Assembly: GCA_013375485.1 (NCBI GenBank)
Contig: JABXKB010000010.1
Coordinates: 1-35,027 of the forward strand
Direction: 5' to 3'
Origin: Promethearchaeota archaeon
GTDB taxonomy: Archaea; Asgardarchaeota; Lokiarchaeia; Sigyniarchaeales; SOKP01
DNA: 35,027 bases
Shown: one piece after another, positions 23,665-33,146 of the stretch
Layout: each line of letters starts with the position of its first letter
Position numbering within the stretch: position 1 is the first letter of the stretch
Translations under genes and position numbers: made by a program
The notes under the pieces: generated by a model
Seen by the model: the letters and a program-made list of their open reading frames with translations, nothing else
Database searches by the model: none
What the model was told of the DNA's origin: nothing

Positions 23665-24813
23665 ATGATTAAGCCACATGGTGGAACATTAATCAACAAA
23701 GAATTACCAAGAATCGAAAAAGAAAGAATAAAAGGAGAAATTAACGAATTTGAGAAAATAGTTGTTAGACCAGAAACTCTTAAAGTAATTAAAAATATTT
23801 CTTTTGGAGTTTTTAGTCCCTTAGAGGGATTCATGAATGAAAATGACTACCATTATGTATTAGATACTATGTACTTAGAAAGTAATTTTGCCTGGCCATT
23901 TCCAATTACTCTGGATGTCTCAGTAGATGAAATCAATAATATTAAAGCTGATGATAAAATAATTCTCACAAATAGCAATGGAACTCCTATTGCATTAATG
24001 AACATAGAAACAATTTATAATTATAAGAAGAATCAATATGCTGAAAAAACATATGGTACATTAGATAAAAATCATCCAGGAGTAATGAGTGTTTTTAATT
24101 ATAAAGAAAAACTCATAGGAGGAGAAATCTTCTTAATTAACGAGCCTAAACCAACTTTTCCAGATTTAGATTTAAAAGCTGTTGAAACAAGAGTTTTATT
24201 TAAGGAAAAGGGTTGGGATAGAGTTGTAGCATTTCAAACAAGAAATCCTCCTCATTTAGGTCATGAATACGTTCAAAAAGCAGGATTAACTTATGTAGAT
24301 GGTCTATTTATCAATCCTGTTATTGGAAAGAAAAAAAAAGGGGATTTTTTAGATATTGTAATTATTGAGGCATATAAATCACTTATAAAAGAGTATTATC
24401 CTAAAAACAGAGTTGTGTTAAGTACATTTGAAACGGAAATGAGATATGCTGGACCTAAAGAAGCTATTTTCCATGCTATAACAAGAAAAAATTTTGGATG
24501 TGATCATATTATTATCGGTCGAGATCATGCGGGAGTTGGTGATTATTATGGACCTTATGATGCTCATGATATCTTCGATAGATTTCCTGATTTAGGTATT
24601 GAACCAATAAAATTTAGATCCTTTTCAAAGTGTAGTAAATGTAATGCTGTTGTTAATGATAAAATTTGTCCCCATCCTCCTGAAATGCAAAACTATTTTG
24701 CAGGAAGAGAGATAAGGGCAGCTTTACAGGCAGGAAAGCCACCTAGCAACCAAGTTATGCGGCCTGAAGTTGCTGAAGTTATCCTAAGATATAAAAATCC
24801 ATTCATAGAATGA
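23665..24813 (+). CDS. sat: Sulfate adenylyltransferase (ATP sulfurylase)
   Basis: Makes adenosine 5'-phosphosulfate (APS) and pyrophosphate from ATP and sulfate. Seen are a PUA-like N-terminal domain with SFGVFSPLEGFMNENDY (46-62), the ATP/sulfate site QTRNPPHLGH (191-200), GRDHAGVGDYYGPYDAH (285-301), and a zinc site formed by C323, C326, C335 and H337. REIRAALQAGKPP (348-360) corresponds to the closing block of the catalytic domain. It has no fused APS-kinase domain, and its 382-aa length fits the single-domain archaeal/Gram-positive form. GAGGT at 23649-23653 is a good ribosome site. With cysC two genes downstream, the route goes to PAPS for sulfation rather than to dissimilatory reduction. 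Confidence 0.95.
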   Translation: MIKPHGGTLINKELPRIEKERIKGEINEFEKIVVRPETLKVIKNISFGVFSPLEGFMNENDYHYVLDTMYLESNFAWPFPITLDVSVDEINNIKADDKIILTNSNGTPIALMNIETIYNYKKNQYAEKTYGTLDKNHPGVMSVFNYKEKLIGGEIFLINEPKPTFPDLDLKAVETRVLFKEKGWDRVVAFQTRNPPHLGHEYVQKAGLTYVDGLFINPVIGKKKKGDFLDIVIIEAYKSLIKEYYPKNRVVLSTFETEMRYAGPKEAIFHAITRKNFGCDHIIIGRDHAGVGDYYGPYDAHDIFDRFPDLGIEPIKFRSFSKCSKCNAVVNDKICPHPPEMQNYFAGREIRAALQAGKPPSNQVMRPEVAEVILRYKNPFIE

Positions 24814-24861
24814 TTTATATTAAAAATAAATTTCAAATGCTTAATTTTGAAGATAAATCTC

Positions 24862-26244
24862 ATGAACAAAAAGAAATTAATCATTATTGGTTTAGATTGT
24901 GCTACACCAAGAACTCTATTTGAAGAATTCATTGAGGATTGTCCTAACATAAAAAAATTGATGGAATCGGGAGTTTATGGAAAACTTAGAACTTGTGATC
25001 CTCCAATAACAATACCCGCTTGGTTAGTAATGGCAACGGGTAAGAAAGCAGGCACTTTGGGATTATATGGTTTTAGGCATAGAAAAGCGAATTCCTATGA
25101 TGATTTCTGGATAGCCACATCTTACAGTATAAAAGAACCAAAAGTATGGGATATAATAGCTAAAAAAGGTTTAAAATCGTGTGTTTTGGGACTACCACCG
25201 ACTTATCCACCTCAAAAAATAAATGGATGCCTAGTTACAGGATTTATTACTCCTGACAGCACTACAGCATTTACATATCCTCCAGAACTCAAGGAAGAGA
25301 TCATAAAGAATATAGGAGATTATCTCTTTGATGTTAATTTTAGAGTTGATAAGAAAGAGATTTTGTTAAAAGAAATCTACGAAATGAGTAAGATTCAATT
25401 CAAAACAATAAAATATTTGATGGAAAATAAAGAATGGGACTATTTTAAATTTGTAATAATTGGATTAGACAGATTTCACCATGCATTTTGGAAATATTAT
25501 GACAAAAAACACGACAAATATGAACTAGATAATCCTTTCGAATTTGAAATGAAAAAATATTATCAATATTTGGATACTAAAATAGGAGAACTTCTAGATA
25601 TATTAGATGATGATACAATTATAATGATCGTGTCAGATCATGGCGCAAAAGCAATGAAAGGATTAATTTGTGTGAATATGGCACTTGAACAGTTGGGACT
25701 TTTAAAATTCAAAACAAAACCAAAACCGAGAACAAGAATTGGAGATGCGGATATCGATTGGGAAAATACTTATGCATGGGGATGGGGAGGATACTATGCA
25801 CGAATATTTTTAAATTTAAAAGGAAGAGAACCAAATGGAATTATAGAAAAAGAAGATTATGAAAACTGGCGAGATGAAATCAGAGAAAAAATAAAATCTA
25901 TCAAAGATCACAACGGTAATCAAATGAATACTAAGGTCTATAAACCAGAAGAATTATTTGAGATTATTCGGGGAGATGCTCCTGATTTAATGGTATATTT
26001 TGATGATTTAAATTGGAGGTCGGCAGGAACCGTTGGATATGAGTCAATGTACTTGGATGAAAATGATACAGGTCCTGACGACGCTGTTCATGATTGGTAT
26101 GGTGTATATATAATTTTTGATCCAAAAAAGAAAATAGGAAAAAATTTAGGAGAAAAAAGCATTCTTGACATAGCACCTACTTCTCTCAATATTTTGGGAT
26201 TAGAAATTCCTTTTGATATGGAAGGTCATATTATTAAATTTTAA
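24862..26244 (+). CDS. Alkaline phosphatase superfamily protein (type I phosphodiesterase/nucleotide pyrophosphatase-like)
   Basis: A metal-dependent hydrolase or transferase of the Phosphodiest group. Seen are IIIGLDCATP with metal-ligand D12, PPITIPAW with T50 as the predicted nucleophile, GLDRFHH (201-207, second metal site), VSDHGA (257-262), and the late AVHDWYG His. The metal and nucleophile residues thus seem complete. No signal peptide or membrane anchor is seen, so it should be cytoplasmic, unlike most sulfatases. I prefer the ATG at 24862; a TTG at 24847 would add five residues. It lies between sat and cysC, 17 bp before cysC, so it should act on APS, PAPS, PAP or a sulfated sugar. 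Which of these is not known. Confidence 0.82.
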   Translation: MNKKKLIIIGLDCATPRTLFEEFIEDCPNIKKLMESGVYGKLRTCDPPITIPAWLVMATGKKAGTLGLYGFRHRKANSYDDFWIATSYSIKEPKVWDIIAKKGLKSCVLGLPPTYPPQKINGCLVTGFITPDSTTAFTYPPELKEEIIKNIGDYLFDVNFRVDKKEILLKEIYEMSKIQFKTIKYLMENKEWDYFKFVIIGLDRFHHAFWKYYDKKHDKYELDNPFEFEMKKYYQYLDTKIGELLDILDDDTIIMIVSDHGAKAMKGLICVNMALEQLGLLKFKTKPKPRTRIGDADIDWENTYAWGWGGYYARIFLNLKGREPNGIIEKEDYENWRDEIREKIKSIKDHNGNQMNTKVYKPEELFEIIRGDAPDLMVYFDDLNWRSAGTVGYESMYLDENDTGPDDAVHDWYGVYIIFDPKKKIGKNLGEKSILDIAPTSLNILGLEIPFDMEGHIIKF

Positions 26245-26261
26245 ATAAAAAGGTTAAAAAA

Positions 26262-26804
26262 ATGGAACATAAAGGATTTACATTATGGTTTACTGGACTT
26301 CCATGTTCAGGTAAAAGCGTGCTTGCAAACTCAATTGCAGAGGATTTAAGGAATAGAGGAATGAAAGTAGAGCGTCTTGATGGTGATATAGTAAGAAAGA
26401 GTTTAACAAGAGATCTAGGATTTACAGAAGAAGATAGAAATATGAACATTGAAAGAGTAACATTTGTAGCTAAATTATTAACTCGAAATGGCGTTGCAGT
26501 GCTTGCTTCTTTTGTATCACCATATAATAAGATCAGAGCTTATTCACGGGAAGAAATTGGAGATTATATACTTGTGTATGCAAAGTGTTCTCTTGAAGAA
26601 TGTGAAAGAAGAGACGTAAAAGGGATGTATGCAAAAGCAAGAGCAGGAGAAATAAAAGATTTCACAGGTATAGATCATCCTTTCGAGGAACCTGATATAG
26701 TTGATATCATAGTAGAAACCGATAAACAAACAGTTGAAGAAAGCAAAGAAATTGTTTTGAAAGCTTTAGATAAAATGGGATATTTAGATAACAAACATAA
26801 ATAA
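26262..26804 (+). CDS. cysC: Adenylylsulfate (APS) kinase
   Basis: Phosphorylates APS at the 3' hydroxyl to give PAPS, the universal sulfate donor. Seen are the P-loop GLPCSGKS (residues 12-19), RLDGDIVRKSL (38-48) and DLGFTEEDRNMNIERV (51-66) for APS binding, and FVSPYNKIR (84-92). The lid region KGMYAKARAGEIKDFTGID and the HPFEEPD block are typical of CysC. Length is 180 aa, a stand-alone enzyme. AGGT just upstream is a weak ribosome site. No PAPS reductase and no classical P-loop sulfotransferase is seen in the window, so the user of the PAPS is either elsewhere or not of a recognised kind. Confidence 0.95.
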   Translation: MEHKGFTLWFTGLPCSGKSVLANSIAEDLRNRGMKVERLDGDIVRKSLTRDLGFTEEDRNMNIERVTFVAKLLTRNGVAVLASFVSPYNKIRAYSREEIGDYILVYAKCSLEECERRDVKGMYAKARAGEIKDFTGIDHPFEEPDIVDIIVETDKQTVEESKEIVLKALDKMGYLDNKHK

Positions 26805-26839: not shown

Positions 26840-27766
26840 TTAAGTAATAATTTTTTTTATTTGCTCTAAAATTTCTCTTTGATTTATATTATAAGCGTCT
26901 AATAGAGTCTCTCTTTTTCCTGATTGACCAAATGAATTATTTATTCCGATGAATCTCATAGGTTTCGGATAATTTTCAGAAATAATTCGTGCAATTATAC
27001 TTCCAAACCCACAATAGATATTATGTTCTTCTATAACAACAATACCTTTAACATTATATACCTCATTCAATAGAGATTTATCATTTATCGGTTTAATACT
27101 TGGAAGATTAATTACTTTAATAGATATTTTTAACTTTTTTTCAATGGCTGGAGCAGAATTAATAGCTAAAATACTACCATATCCGGTTCCTATTAAACAA
27201 ATATCAGCTCCATCCTTTAATATGTCTGGTTCTCCAATAATAAAATTATAATTGTCATTATGAATTTTAGGAAAAGAACCCCTTGGTAATCTGATGTAAA
27301 ATGGTCCTTTTGTATTAAAGCTATATTCCAATATTCTTACAAGCTCAACATTATCGGAAGGAACTAAAACATTTAAATTTGGGAGAGTAGCCATTAAGCT
27401 AAGATCTTCCAATGCATTATGGGTGCTACCATCTTCTCCTACAAAACCACTATGTGTTGTTATAATTTTTAAATTTAAATTGTCATGACAAGCGAACCTT
27501 ATGAATTCCCATGCTCTTCCAGTTGTAAATATAGAAAATCCACTTACTATCGGAGTTTTTCCAGAAATTGAAAACCCCAACGCAGTTCCTACCATATTTT
27601 GCTCTGCAATTCCCATATTAAAGAATCGATTTGGAAATGTTTTAGCAAATTTAAATGTTTTTGTAGATAATGATAAATCAGCATCTAAAACTACAATATT
27701 CTTATTTTTATGACCTTTTTCAACTAAGAAATCTCCAAAAGTATCTCTGAGAGAAGGTTCTGACAT
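26840..27766 (-). CDS. Transketolase, C-terminal subunit
   Basis: The pyrimidine-binding and C-terminal domains of transketolase on a separate chain, as in many archaea and some bacteria. Seen are LDADLSLSTKTF, FFNMGIAEQNMVGTALGFS (with the Glu that activates thiamine diphosphate), THSGFVGEDGSTHNALEDL and FYIRLPRGSFPK, then the C-terminal Rossmann-like part with GTGYGSILAI and VVIEEHNIYCGFGS. Length is 308 aa. It begins 4 bp after the N-terminal subunit and ends the operon, convergent with cysC. In this operon its job would be to make erythrose 4-phosphate and xylulose 5-phosphate, or sedoheptulose 7-phosphate directly. Confidence 0.92.
   Translation of the reverse strand: MSEPSLRDTFGDFLVEKGHKNKNIVVLDADLSLSTKTFKFAKTFPNRFFNMGIAEQNMVGTALGFSISGKTPIVSGFSIFTTGRAWEFIRFACHDNLNLKIITTHSGFVGEDGSTHNALEDLSLMATLPNLNVLVPSDNVELVRILEYSFNTKGPFYIRLPRGSFPKIHNDNYNFIIGEPDILKDGADICLIGTGYGSILAINSAPAIEKKLKISIKVINLPSIKPINDKSLLNEVYNVKGIVVIEEHNIYCGFGSIIARIISENYPKPMRFIGINNSFGQSGKRETLLDAYNINQREILEQIKKIIT
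26851..26858 (+). terminator. T8 tract after cysC, possible archaeal terminator
   Basis: Eight T residues on the plus strand begin 47 bp after the cysC stop, within the last codons of the convergent transketolase subunit gene. Archaeal RNA polymerase commonly terminates at such tracts without a hairpin. No stem precedes it. Confidence 0.35.
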
Positions 27767-27770
27767 TGAG

Positions 27771-28625
27771 CTAATTACCTCTTTTTAATTTCAATTTTAT
27801 ATCTTCAATTTCTCTAAGAGCTATATTGTATTCCTCTTCATTTGGTGCTCGTCCATGATATTCTTTAGTATGTTGCATAAATGAAACATCAGCTCCTTTG
27901 ATTAGAAAAGAAATAATTACCTTAGGCTTACCAATTATAGATTTAGTTCTTTCAAATCCTTGAAGTGTTTCTTTCAGATTTGATCCATCTACTTCAATAA
28001 CTTCCCAACCAAAAGCTCTCCATTTATCTACTAATGGTTCTAAAGCCATAATCTGTTCTGTTGAGCCATCTATTTGAATACCATTACGATCTACAATTGC
28101 AACTAAGTTATCTAATTTATAATGACTAGCGGACATAGCGGCTTCCCAAATAGCCCCTTCATTTAACTCTCCATCTCCTAATAAAACATAAATAATTTTA
28201 TCTTTGTTATCTAATTTAGCACTTAAAGCGCATCCAACTCCAATTGATAATCCCATTCCTAGTGATCCTGTGGATATTTCTATACCAATTTCTTGATTTT
28301 TAACAGGATGTCCCTGTAATATGGAACCATATTTTCTTAATGTAAATAGATCATCTCTTTTTATAAAACCAAATTTTGATAAAACAGCATATAATGCTGG
28401 CGCTGCATGTCCTTTACTCAATATAAAAATATCTCTCTCTTCCCAAGTAGGATCTCTGTAATTTATTTTCATTATATTATTATAAAGAAGATATATAATA
28501 TTAGCACATGATAATGAGCCTCCAGGATGTCCTGATTGGGCTTTATATATCATCCTTAAAATGTCCTTTTTGATATCCAGAATATCACTTAAAATTCTTT
28601 GTTCTTCAAGTTTAGATAATTCCAT
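27771..28625 (-). CDS. Transketolase, N-terminal (thiamine diphosphate-binding) subunit
   Basis: Carries the diphosphate-binding half of transketolase. Seen are AQSGHPGGSLSCANIIYLLY, LSKGHAAPALYAVL, TGSLGMGLSIGVG, and the thiamine-diphosphate motif GDGELNEGAIWEAAMSA ending in VDRNG. QHTKEYHGRAP near the C-terminus holds a conserved His region. Length is 284 aa. It pairs with the gene 4 bp downstream to form the full enzyme. Many archaea lack transketolase, so its presence next to sedoheptulose-7-phosphate-using enzymes points to a dedicated supply of that sugar. Confidence 0.92.
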   Translation of the reverse strand: MELSKLEEQRILSDILDIKKDILRMIYKAQSGHPGGSLSCANIIYLLYNNIMKINYRDPTWEERDIFILSKGHAAPALYAVLSKFGFIKRDDLFTLRKYGSILQGHPVKNQEIGIEISTGSLGMGLSIGVGCALSAKLDNKDKIIYVLLGDGELNEGAIWEAAMSASHYKLDNLVAIVDRNGIQIDGSTEQIMALEPLVDKWRAFGWEVIEVDGSNLKETLQGFERTKSIIGKPKVIISFLIKGADVSFMQHTKEYHGRAPNEEEYNIALREIEDIKLKLKRGN

Positions 28626-28646: not shown

Positions 28647-29645
28647 TTACGTTTTATGAATTATATTTAATATAAAATCCAGCAATTTTTTTACTCCATA
28701 AAATTCTACAGGGGGGAGTGATGCTGTAAGAGCAGCAGCAAAAAGTGATATTTTTACTCCATCATTTACTGATAATCCAGAAGCAAATGATAATCCTAAC
28801 ACAGCCATAATAACACTTCCAACGGCTACATAACTTCTAACCGGTTGTTGTAGAATAGGATTAAATTTTTCTACTTTCTCATCCTCTCTTGAAAATAAAT
28901 AAGATTCTAATTCCAGGTAATTTAACAGAATATTTTTACATTTGGAAGAATTTAAAATCCTTTTTCCGGCAATTGTAATGCTTGTTTCATTACAACAATC
29001 GATTGAAAAGGTATCTAAAGCTTTCTGAAGATTTATCTTTATTAAATCTACATTTTCATAAAGATAATAATTGAATTTTGTAGGACGTACAATTATAGGA
29101 ACATTTTTATAGTTTTCTTTTAAATCTCGCAATAAATTTTGAATAAATAAATCCTTAAATATTCCTTTTAAACCATAATCCAAAATTAGTATAGCGCCTA
29201 TATCTTGAGACTTATTATTTATTAGATCTTTAAACTTTTCTATTATAGATTGAGATATATCACCATTGTAATCGGTTTCTAAACGTAAAAGATGTTGATT
29301 CATTGCTTTTATTCGAGTAATTTGAGGTGTTCTTAAATTTTCATCCACCAGAATACCATTAGAGTTAATATTCAACTCTTTTATCTTTTTTAAATAAAAA
29401 TCGCCCTCAAAATCATTACCAACAATAGTGTATATTTCGGGAATTCCTCCCAAAGATTGAATAAATTGAATTACTAATCCAGCTGCCCCAATATAAACAC
29501 TACTTTTTTCAATTTTTACATTAGGGACAGGAGCATCAGGAGAGATTTTGTCAGTATATCCAAAAATATACTTATCTATTAAAGCATCTCCAATAATTAG
29601 TACTTTCTTACCATTCCATTTGGAAATTTCATCAACAAGAGCCAT
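28647..29645 (-). CDS. RfaE1/HldA-like PfkB-family protein with degenerate active site
   Basis: The N-terminal half clearly follows heptose-7-phosphate kinase RfaE1 (HldE domain 1): VLIIGDALIDKYIFG (residues 15-29), KISPDAPVPNVKIE (33-46), TIVGNDFEGDFY (73-84), RLETD (121-125) and ILDYGLKGIF (154-163). The C-terminal half has lost the family's key features. Where the catalytic GAGD and anion hole should be, the protein reads SYVAVGSVIMAVLGL (271-285), with no Asp; the substrate-side GGAAN reads GAAGL (53-57); and the usual TRGExG segment is not recognisable. It is probably not a working kinase and may bind a heptose phosphate or serve as a subunit or regulator. The frame is intact with no stops, so it seems maintained. 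Spacing is 9 bp after tal and 21 bp before tktN. Confidence 0.8.
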   Translation of the reverse strand: MALVDEISKWNGKKVLIIGDALIDKYIFGYTDKISPDAPVPNVKIEKSSVYIGAAGLVIQFIQSLGGIPEIYTIVGNDFEGDFYLKKIKELNINSNGILVDENLRTPQITRIKAMNQHLLRLETDYNGDISQSIIEKFKDLINNKSQDIGAILILDYGLKGIFKDLFIQNLLRDLKENYKNVPIIVRPTKFNYYLYENVDLIKINLQKALDTFSIDCCNETSITIAGKRILNSSKCKNILLNYLELESYLFSREDEKVEKFNPILQQPVRSYVAVGSVIMAVLGLSFASGLSVNDGVKISLFAAALTASLPPVEFYGVKKLLDFILNIIHKT

Positions 29646-29654
29646 TATACAGAT

Positions 29655-30311
29655 TTATTTTTTTAATTCTCCTTGTAATTTTTCCCAATCTTTAAGAAAT
29701 GCTTCTAATCCTTGATCAGTGTTTGGATGTTTAAACATTTTTTCAAGAACACTAAAAGGGATCGTAGCGATATGTGCACCCATTTTTGCGGATTCAATAA
29801 CGTGTCGGGTATTTCTAATAGAAGCAACGATTAATTCGGATTTAAAATCATAAGCGTTAAGAATTTCCATTGATTCCCAAAGCATATCAATTTCATTTTG
29901 ACCATTATCCATCAATCTTCCTATGAAAGGACTTATATATGAAGCTCCAGCTTTTGCTGCAATTAAAACTTGATTTTGTGAAAATACAAGAGTAACATTT
30001 GTTTTAATCCCTTCAGGTTCGAGTATTTTGACTGCTTTAATCCCATCCTTTGTAAAAGGAATCTTTACAACAATATTTGGGGCGATTTTAGATAATTCAC
30101 GAGCTTCATTAACCATTTCTTCAGTGGTTAGTCCTATAACTTCTCCACTAACAGGTCCATTAACAAGTTCACAGATTTTTCTTAATTGTTCAACAGGTTC
30201 AGCTCCTTCTTTGGCTAAAAGAGTAGGATTTGTAGTTACTCCGTCAATTATGCCTAATTCTTGCATTTCTTTTATTTGATCTAAATTAGCAGTATCAATA
30301 AAAAATTTCAT
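29655..30311 (-). CDS. tal: Transaldolase (TalC/MipB small type)
   Basis: A TIM-barrel Schiff-base enzyme moving a dihydroxyacetone unit: fructose 6-phosphate plus erythrose 4-phosphate to sedoheptulose 7-phosphate plus glyceraldehyde 3-phosphate. Seen are [11 protein letters not shown] (3-13), [14 protein letters not shown] (23-36), and [12 protein letters not shown] (79-90) with K83 as the Schiff-base lysine. Residues that separate true transaldolases from fructose-6-phosphate aldolases in this family read as transaldolase: E57 (PVSGEV; Gln in FSA) and F129 (ISPFIGR; Tyr in FSA). Length (218 aa) is standard. It is placed between gmhB and the RfaE1-like gene, in line with a role in feeding GmhA. 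Confidence 0.92.
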
Positions 30312-30355: not shown

Positions 30356-30898
30356 TTATATATTTATAGCAAATTCTCTTAAATTTTTAAATATCATGTC
30401 CGGTGTTATAATACCTATCTTTTTTTGTTCCTCGTTTCCATATCCCGTTAAGACCAAAACTGTTTTGCACCTCGCTACTATACCTGTTTGAATATCATTC
30501 AATGTATCTCCAACCATGTAGGATTTAGTTAAATCAATATTATGTTTAAACTGCGCTTTTAAAATCATTCCTGGATTTGGCTTCCTACAATCACATGAAC
30601 CAGTGAATTTGGGATGGTGAGGACAATAATAAATATCATCTAACTGTATATTATTTTTCTTTAATATATAATTCATTTTATCATGGATTGCTGTTAGAGT
30701 CTCTTCTGTAAAAAAACCTCTAGCTATACCCGCTTGATTGGTAATAATAATTAACAAGAATTTTTTTTGTTTAAGAATTTTTAAAGCTTCAATTGAACCT
30801 TCAATAAATTCAAAATTTTCCGGATCTGAAAGATAACTAACTTCTTTATTTATCACACCGTCTCGATCTAAGAAAATTGCCTTGTTTTGGTTAGTCAT
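30356..30898 (-). CDS. gmhB: D-glycero-D-manno-heptose 1,7-bisphosphate 7-phosphatase
   Basis: A HAD-superfamily phosphatase that removes the 7-phosphate from heptose 1,7-bisphosphate. Seen are FLDRDGVIN with nucleophile D11 and acid/base D13, [13 protein letters not shown] (motif II), the zinc-binding loop CPHHP...CDCRKPNPG, and [12 protein letters not shown] (motif IV). I place the start at 30898, where ATG overlaps the rpe stop (ATGACTAA) and leaves five residues before the first strand; an in-frame ATG at 30949 would add 17 residues inside rpe. Related histidinol-phosphate phosphatases share this motif set, but the neighbours gmhA and hddA decide for heptose. Confidence 0.93.
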
Positions 30899-31526
30899 TA
30901 GAATCAGATTCTTTAAATAGTTTAATAATTTTGTTGGGATTTTTAGCATGCAAAATAGTGCTGGAGCTAGATAAAATATCTGTTTTTTTCAATAATTTTG
31001 CATTTGTTAGATTAATCCCACCATCAACATCAATAAGAAAGTTATAATTCTTTTTATACTCAGCCAACTGATTTACTTTATTTACTGTCTCTGGAATAAA
31101 TTTTTGTCCTGACCAACCAGGATTAACACTCATTATTAAGACAAGATCGATTTTTTCTAGATATGATATAATCTCAGAAATATGAGTCTCTGGATTTATA
31201 GCAAAGCCAACCTTTTTATTTTCATTTCTAATTTCTTTGATTATATTGGCTTTATCGTTATTTGTTTCAAAGTGAAATAAAAATATATCAATAAATTTAA
31301 TAATCTTTTTAATGTAATCAAAGGGATTTATAACCATTAAATGGGCAATTATAGGAGTTTTATAAATTTTTTTTAAAGCCTTAAAGACATTTAGATTATT
31401 ATTTGTATTATTTACAAATTTACCATCCATAACATCCACATGGATGTAATCGTAACTTTCTAATCCTTTTAAAATATCCGTTGTGAAGTTTTCTGTTGCA
31501 TGTATAGAAACTGCGACTTTTTTCAT
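30891..31526 (-). CDS. rpe: Ribulose-phosphate 3-epimerase family protein
   Basis: A TIM-barrel metalloenzyme interconverting ribulose 5-phosphate and xylulose 5-phosphate. Seen are the start [20 protein letters not shown] (metal-binding His and catalytic Asp), [12 protein letters not shown] (second His), [19 protein letters not shown] (phosphate loop) and [10 protein letters not shown] (second catalytic Asp). The metal and acid/base residues are all present. I prefer the ATG at 31526, 10 bp after gmhA; a TTG at 31544 would add six residues and overlap gmhA. In this operon it would balance the pentose phosphates left over when transketolase and transaldolase make sedoheptulose 7-phosphate. 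Some divergence (such as SSSSTIL near the C-terminus) leaves room for another ketose phosphate. Confidence 0.88.
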
Positions 31527-31536
31527 GAAATACCAG

Positions 31537-32103
31537 TTACCCAAAAAGTTCCTTCTCTACTAAATAACAAATAATATGTCCAACGGTTATGTGTCCTTCT
31601 TGAATTCGCGGTGTATCGGTTGATGGTATTTTTAAACAAATATCTGTAATCTCCTCAACTTTACTTTTTTTTTGACCTGTAAAACCCACAGTTATAGCAC
31701 CCTTTTCTTTAGCTTTTATCAAGCCTTTTATTACATTTGGAGAATCTCCAGATGTACTAATTCCAATCGCAATATCTCCTTCATCTACGAATGATGACAC
31801 TTGTCTTTCAAACACCAAATCATAGCCGAAATCATTAGCTATTGCTGTGAGCACTGATGTATTTGTATGAAAAGCAAGAGAAGGAAGTGATTCTCTATCT
31901 TTATAAAATTTTCCAACAAATTCAGCAGCTATGTGTTGTGCATCTGCTGCACTTCCTCCATTACCAAATAGAACAACTTTTTTTTTATTTCTGTAAGCAT
32001 TTATTATTTTCTCCGAGATTTTTGCAATAATTGGAGTTAAATTTTTTATCGCTTCTTTAACTTTAATACTCTCATTCAAAATTACAATTATTTCATTTTC
32101 CAT
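31537..32103 (-). CDS. gmhA: Sedoheptulose-7-phosphate isomerase
   Basis: A SIS-domain enzyme converting sedoheptulose 7-phosphate to D-glycero-D-manno-heptose 7-phosphate, the first committed step of heptose synthesis. Seen are [20 protein letters not shown] (45-64), [19 protein letters not shown] (73-91), [12 protein letters not shown] (114-125) and [14 protein letters not shown] (166-179). H57, E61, Q168 and H176 keep the spacing of the E. coli GmhA zinc and catalytic residues (61, 65, 172, 180). Length (188 aa) is standard. AAGGA lies a few bases before the ATG. It is the second gene of the operon, 32 bp after hddA. Confidence 0.96.
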
Positions 32104-32135: not shown

Positions 32136-33146
32136 CTATTTAACTTCCCACACTTCAAGTCCTTTTGGGTTAAAATGAAAATTAACAATTTGTCCACCAA
32201 TTTTTTCCAATTCTTGAATTACTACATGTTTCTTACTGGAATCTGAAAAAAGTAATAAATGCCCTCCACCGCCAGCGCCAAGTAATTTTCCACCAAGAAC
32301 CCCAAACTTCCTTGAGGTTAAATAAAAATTCTCTATCTTTTTATTTGAGATTTTAGTACTTAAACTCTTTTTTGCTACCCATCCTTTATGTAAGAGATTC
32401 CCAAATTCATTTAATCTGCTTAAATTGTTAGATTCCACAATATTTCTCATAGAATGGGCTACATCTTTTAAATCTTGCATTGCTTCCATATAGGATTTCT
32501 TTTCAATTTCATACCCCTTTAATACCTCATCTTGGATATCAGACGAAAAATGAGAACCTCCTATATAACATAATATTAAACAAAACTGGAGTTCATTTAT
32601 CATTTCCACACTGGTATTTATAGGAAGCACTTTAACAACATCAGTAAATTCAATAAAATTAAAACCTCCATAAGTAGCAGCATATTGATCTTGATATCCC
32701 CCTTTCTGTTTTAATTCGATTCGCTCAATATCGTAAGCTTTTTGGGCAATTTCATGTTTTGAAAACCCTAAATTATAATATCTATTTAAGGCGCCAATTA
32801 AGGCAACAGATAAGGATGATGAGCCTCCCATTCCAGAACCCGCAGGAAGTTCTGAGTAAATAAATATATCCAATCCATCCTTTACATTTAGAACATTAAA
32901 AATTCCTTTAACTAATTCAAAATCAGTTGAATAATCTTTATCTCCAATATTAAAAAGGTATTCTTTATTAGGATTAATGGAATTAATTCTGATCTTTTTA
33001 TCGTTCCTTGGTTTTAGAGTTAGATAGACATGTCGATCAATCGTAGTACTAATTACACAACCTCCATGATCGATGCAATATGGAGCCATGTCTGTTCCTC
33101 CTCCACCAAAGCTTACTCGAAACGGTGCTTTTGAACGAATAATCAT
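32136..33146 (-). CDS. hddA: D-glycero-alpha-D-manno-heptose 7-phosphate kinase (HddA-like GHMP kinase)
   Basis: A GHMP-family kinase phosphorylating C1 of heptose 7-phosphate to the alpha-1,7-bisphosphate. Seen are the N-terminal RSKAPFRVSFGGGGTDMAPY (4-23, substrate strand shared by HddA and fucokinase relatives), the ATP-binding ELPAGSGMGGSSSL near residues 99-112, IELKQKGGYQDQYAATYGG, and the C-terminal GGKLLGAGGGGHLLLF (motif 3). Length (336 aa) is that of HddA. HddA belongs to the GDP-alpha-heptose route known from S-layer glycans; here it opens the operon together with gmhA and gmhB. No HddC nucleotidyltransferase was recognised in the window. Confidence 0.92.
   Translation of the reverse strand: MIIRSKAPFRVSFGGGGTDMAPYCIDHGGCVISTTIDRHVYLTLKPRNDKKIRINSINPNKEYLFNIGDKDYSTDFELVKGIFNVLNVKDGLDIFIYSELPAGSGMGGSSSLSVALIGALNRYYNLGFSKHEIAQKAYDIERIELKQKGGYQDQYAATYGGFNFIEFTDVVKVLPINTSVEMINELQFCLILCYIGGSHFSSDIQDEVLKGYEIEKKSYMEAMQDLKDVAHSMRNIVESNNLSRLNEFGNLLHKGWVAKKSLSTKISNKKIENFYLTSRKFGVLGGKLLGAGGGGHLLLFSDSSKKHVVIQELEKIGGQIVNFHFNPKGLEVWEVK

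Follow-up and report, generated by a model that had tools for sequence, protein, structure and literature searches.

What does a sugar kinase do in a metabolic operon once the residues needed for phosphorylation have gone? The question is raised by psK, a gene in the window analysed here (the whole stretch of 35,027 nucleotides), which belongs to a lokiarchaeal genome of 4.6 Mb in 457 contigs. The initial annotation described psK as an RfaE1-type kinase homologue that has lost its catalytic GAGD motif, and proposed that a pseudokinase had been kept in the operon as a partner of transketolase or transaldolase. The comparisons described below, which draw on sequence and on a predicted structure, give good support to PsK as a conserved archaeal PfkB pseudokinase, and they bear unequally on the two candidate partners.

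The operon and its genes

The eight genes of the operon are transcribed in the order hddA-gmhA-rpe-gmhB-tal-psK-tktN-tktC:

hddA, 32136..33146, minus strand: GHMP-type heptose-7-phosphate kinase homologue (NF049969 235 bits, below the equivalog cut-off of 600)
gmhA, 31537..32103, minus strand: sedoheptulose-7-phosphate isomerase homologue
rpe, 30891..31544, minus strand: ribulose-phosphate 3-epimerase family (NF004076 above cut-off)
gmhB, 30356..30949, minus strand: heptose 1,7-bisphosphate phosphatase (TIGR00213 and NF006506 above cut-off)
tal, 29655..30311, minus strand: small transaldolase / fructose-6-phosphate aldolase family (TIGR00875 above cut-off)
psK, 28647..29645, minus strand: predicted RfaE1-derived PfkB pseudokinase of 332 aa, in which AVGS (residues 274-277) replaces GAGD
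tktN, 27771..28625, minus strand: transketolase N-terminal (TPP-binding) subunit
tktC, 26840..27766, minus strand: transketolase C-terminal subunit

The psK frame is open, as had been claimed, on a strand (minus) that the annotation left unstated, and the gene order is conserved among relatives, in line with the description of psK as kept in the operon. Judging from the family assignments, transketolase, transaldolase and the epimerase would convert fructose-6-phosphate and pentose phosphates into sedoheptulose-7-phosphate, which GmhA, HddA and GmhB would carry on to heptose-1-phosphate. The annotation had credited HddA with heptose-7-phosphate kinase activity, and a GHMP-type homologue does head the operon; its product would carry out the phosphorylation for which PsK is no longer equipped. 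HddA-type kinases serve the same pathway step as the ancestor of PsK, on the other anomer, but their fold is unrelated to that of PsK, and hddA is a separate gene in this operon. A literature search on archaeal heptose operons returned bacterial heptose work only and turned up no description of the operon from Lokiarchaeota.

Genes for ATP sulfurylase, a conserved protein and APS kinase (23665-26804) adjoin the operon convergently and recur there in many relatives, which suggests a supply of PAPS for sulfated surface sugars. The conserved protein (24847-26244) had no NCBIfam match at E 1e-10 and looks like a member of the alkaline phosphatase superfamily. Elsewhere the same genome has another small gene of the transaldolase family (G000:C266:3889-4530), which is 44% identical to tal, and distant copies of this family were also found in genomes G025, G027 and G030.

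Across 65 genomes of one family, the operon was present or absent as a unit. psK was found in 25 of them, in eight of the nine genera, operon-type hddA (66-100% identical) in 24 and tktN in 25; psK and tktN occurred together in 24 genomes (Fisher p ~1.5e-15 with genomes treated as independent, which they are not). Both exceptions involve contig ends. In G020 psK is cut by one, and in G026 the apparent operon without psK is explained by short hddA and tkt contigs (4535 and 4577 bases), which end before the expected psK. The transketolase N-half was not found in the other family genomes, which lack psK, and therefore the split enzyme of the operon appears to be the only transketolase of these Lokiarchaea. 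Within the family the split transketolase (26840-28625) is confined to genomes that have the heptose operon, suggesting that their sedoheptulose-7-phosphate is made mainly for heptoses.

Descent from RfaE1 and state of the active site

The annotation had recognised RfaE1 blocks in the N-terminal half of PsK, and the homology proved to extend well beyond it. TIGR02198 matched residues 7-306 with E=6.8e-43, scoring 147 bits where the cut-off is 345; the top score among the homologues was 165 bits. Apart from the RfaE1/HldE models, ribokinase was the best-matching kinase family, at E=0.076. An AlphaFold model obtained from a 25-member alignment (pLDDT 87.9, pTM 0.89) had Burkholderia HldA (4e84) as its nearest solved structure by fold (E=2e-24, TM 0.78/0.82), the same protein that was closest in a sequence-profile comparison, and the 50 best Foldseek matches of the model were all ribokinase/PfkB-family kinases. 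By sequence and model, PsK descends from a PfkB protein of the RfaE1 (D-glycero-beta-D-manno-heptose-7-phosphate kinase) type and has retained its fold, its clasp/lid and the residues on the sugar side.

The register of the GAGD motif was established by two methods: a MAFFT alignment with E. coli HldE (MG1655 record) and five GAGD-containing PfkB paralogues from the same genome, and an hhalign comparison of the 25-member psK profile with HldE. Both place Ser277 at the position of the catalytic Asp, which rules out an Asp hidden by misalignment. In this register the S-Y-V-A-V-G-S of the psK family aligns to D-V-T-G-A-G-D of HldE, and SYVAVGSVIMAVLGL of PsK stands where HldE has DVTGAGDTVIGVLAA. 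In PfkB kinases the Asp of G/AXGD is the catalytic base, and its change to Asn in E. coli Pfk-2 strongly reduced activity and mildly affected substrate binding (PMC5405513). Ser occupies this position in all 25 psK homologues, with no Asp in any of them, and the loss of GAGD asserted in the annotation stands.

The other PfkB motifs have roles connected with ATP, Mg and the anion hole, and they too have changed. The sugar-binding GGAAN, annotated as GAAGL, reads IGAAGLV in PsK in place of GGAANV in HldE, and G(A/G)(I/A)GL in the family; only 12 of the 25 homologues retain the GG of this signature, and the Asn of GGxxN is gone from every one. DPKG has become RP(T/N), TPNLSE has become (K/R)xNLQK, without the Glu of NxxE, and the ATP-loop motif VTRSEQGM has become LNYLExES, in which T..G is replaced. 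Arg stands at the position of HldE Asp177 in 25/25 homologues and Lys at that of Glu198 in 23/25. The former Mg/ATP site has instead acquired a set of invariant or near-invariant residues (Arg187, Asn192, Tyr193, Glu197, Lys/Arg203 and Ser277), and with Arg187, Lys/Arg203 and Lys208 it would be more basic than before.

The substrate side has been retained. Asp24, Arg121 and Glu123 are present in all homologues and Asp156 in 24 of 25; the ISPDAPVP clasp and TPQITRIKAMNQHLLRLE persist across them, the RfaE1-specific clasp RISPDAPVP and an RNQQLIRL-like block being conserved in PsK. With RfaE1, HldA and domain 1 of HldE (TIGR02198; 4e84) PsK has in common full-length homology, the predicted fold, the RISP(E/D)APVP clasp and the TKLR..RNQQLIRL block, but it scores below the cut-off, has lost the catalytic Asp and the GGAAN, DPK, NxxE and ATP-loop motifs, and is encoded in an operon that has an HddA-type kinase. 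Relative to the RfaE1 equivalog, it is thus the score and the catalytic Asp that are wanting, while the clasp and the substrate-side blocks are in place. Similarly, PsK passes the gathering score of PF00294 (31.2 versus 25.8 bits) and has a predicted ribokinase-like fold, yet carries neither the GG nor the G/AXGD signature of PfkB proteins in functional form.

The C-terminal half also contains conserved cysteines, C217 (24/25), C218 (21/25) and C236 (19/25), which are possibly a thiol or metal site.

Distribution and selection

The 25 full-length homologues, all from Lokiarchaeia, are 51-94% identical and conserved in length. When the class (83 genomes) was searched with a profile, no member beyond those of the family appeared; a scan of species-representative contigs matched solely Lokiarchaeota records, and a separate scan of viral contigs gave no match. 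In eight close pairs (Nei-Gojobori) omega (dN/dS) of psK was 0.054-0.207, values for tkt, tal, gmhA and hddA spanned the same range, and both halves of the protein, the C-terminal one included, were constrained. With Ser in every homologue and omega at 0.05-0.21, a recent isolated loss is ruled out. No RfaE1 above the TIGR02198 cut-off was found in 228 genomes of the phylum, so psK is no redundant duplicate of a functional RfaE1.

The loss of catalytic residues is conserved across orthologues under purifying selection, which is the pattern by which a pseudokinase is recognised. On this comparative evidence PsK very probably lacks kinase activity and is preserved for a function, and the pseudokinase of the initial annotation has held up against the homologue search and the structure prediction that it called for. 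The known parallel is found in plants: the FLN proteins also have the PfkB fold, show no detectable fructokinase activity and are needed as subunits of complexes (PMC5405513, PMC4036507). They differ from PsK in being fructokinase-derived rather than descended from RfaE1, eukaryotic, and part of a transcription complex instead of sugar biosynthesis. Our literature search for PfkB pseudokinases found this plant precedent only and none that is prokaryotic, although its thin coverage of subscription papers makes it a weak basis for a claim of priority.

Candidate partners and alternative roles

In each of the 23 loci with both genes, psK precedes tktN by 6-37 bp. The pairwise distances of psK correlated with those of tktN at 0.90 and of tktC at 0.86 (tktN with tktC, 0.88), against 0.74-0.80 for tal, gmhA, gmhB, rpe and hddA, although gene adjacency alone can raise such values. 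In the 15 shared genomes the contrast was 0.94/0.95 for tktN/tktC versus 0.73-0.80 for the others. When genomes were resampled, the lead of tktN over every other gene was reversed in 0-0.6% of cases; that of tktC was reversed in 3.9% against gmhA and in 9.8% against hddA, which is not clearly separated. Within the genus the psK-tal correlation was nearly as high, 0.91, and those with hddA, gmhA and gmhB were 0.50-0.60.

Transaldolase had been named as the other possible partner. G023, G030 and G031 all have psK but no tal in the operon, and in G023 and G031 tal was not found in a genome-wide search either, which disfavours an obligatory role for it. Together with adjacency and distance correlation, this favours transketolase over transaldolase among the two partners originally proposed.

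One locus does not fit so simply. Genome G002 has, besides a complete operon copy, a second, decayed one (L049; G002:C140:63600-83500), in which tal and psK are intact and four genes survive as remnants left by deletions: hddA residues 1-140, gmhB 129-197, tktN 1-35 and tktC 199-307. The estimated contamination of this genome is 9%. The locus may be a relic, or it may hint at a separate use for tal and psK, and it counts against a role confined to the adjacent transketolase because psK stays intact beside truncated tktN and tktC.

The likeliest reading, to which we give about even odds, is that PsK works with the split transketolase without catalysing a reaction itself: its pocket would bind a heptose or heptulose phosphate, and it would modulate TktN/TktC or hold them together. 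The old substrate pocket would receive the C7 sugar phosphate, binding would modulate or organise the two subunits, and the supply of sedoheptulose-7-phosphate would thereby match demand. That the function is exerted on transketolase falls just short of an even call. A more specific version, in which PsK is an allosteric third subunit and heptose-phosphate sensor, so that the sole transketolase is devoted to heptose synthesis and feedback-controlled by it, is tentative and on balance doubtful.

The alternatives, from more to less likely, are that PsK senses the heptose branch, that it has gained a new catalytic activity, or that it is a kinase of an atypical sort. In the first, PsK would be a sensor or scaffold for HddA, GmhA or GmhB, or for the whole pathway, rather than for transketolase. 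An RfaE1 ancestry means a pocket made for heptose-7-phosphate, and psK co-occurs almost perfectly with operon-type hddA; we nevertheless find this reading rather unlikely. The distance correlations with hddA, gmhA and gmhB are the lower ones, overall and within the genus, psK remains beside tkt in G018 and G037 although their hddA is several kb distant, and HddA has the GHMP fold, hence PsK is no paralogue of it.

In the second, PsK would have become an enzyme that acts without ATP on a heptose or heptulose phosphate, for instance by hydrolysis or by helping the interconversion of anomers that leads from the GmhA product to the HddA substrate. We know of no precedent for such chemistry in a PfkB fold and regard it as improbable, even though the new residues at the former Mg/ATP site are as expected for a re-tooled pocket. 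WcbL, a relative of HddA, seems to take the alpha anomer (PMC4691232), whereas RfaE1 acts on the beta anomer; but anomers interconvert spontaneously and GmhA appears to make the specific anomer that fits WcbL (PMC4691232).

Still less probably, PsK is a working kinase whose atypical active site dispenses with the Asp or uses a different donor, for example pyrophosphate. The strength of purifying selection and the intact predicted fold would suit this, but the ATP, Mg and anion-hole motifs are all replaced in every member, and the operon already encodes a kinase. A pseudogene-like relic, open by chance, would account for the lost motifs, but with 25 open homologues of conserved length down to 51% identity, and with omega no higher than in the functional genes around it, its likelihood is negligible.

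Returning to a partnership with transketolase, the strict preservation of psK beside this enzyme suggests that a dead kinase has been re-used as a regulatory or structural partner, and is not a decaying gene. Descriptions of non-catalytic proteins in the PfkB sugar-kinase family are rare, and here clean comparative support and a defined eight-gene operon make the job of a dead kinase in a metabolic operon directly testable. For these Lokiarchaea, whose archaeal lineage is the nearest to complex cells, the finding suggests that transketolase and sedoheptulose-7-phosphate serve surface heptoses and not central metabolism.
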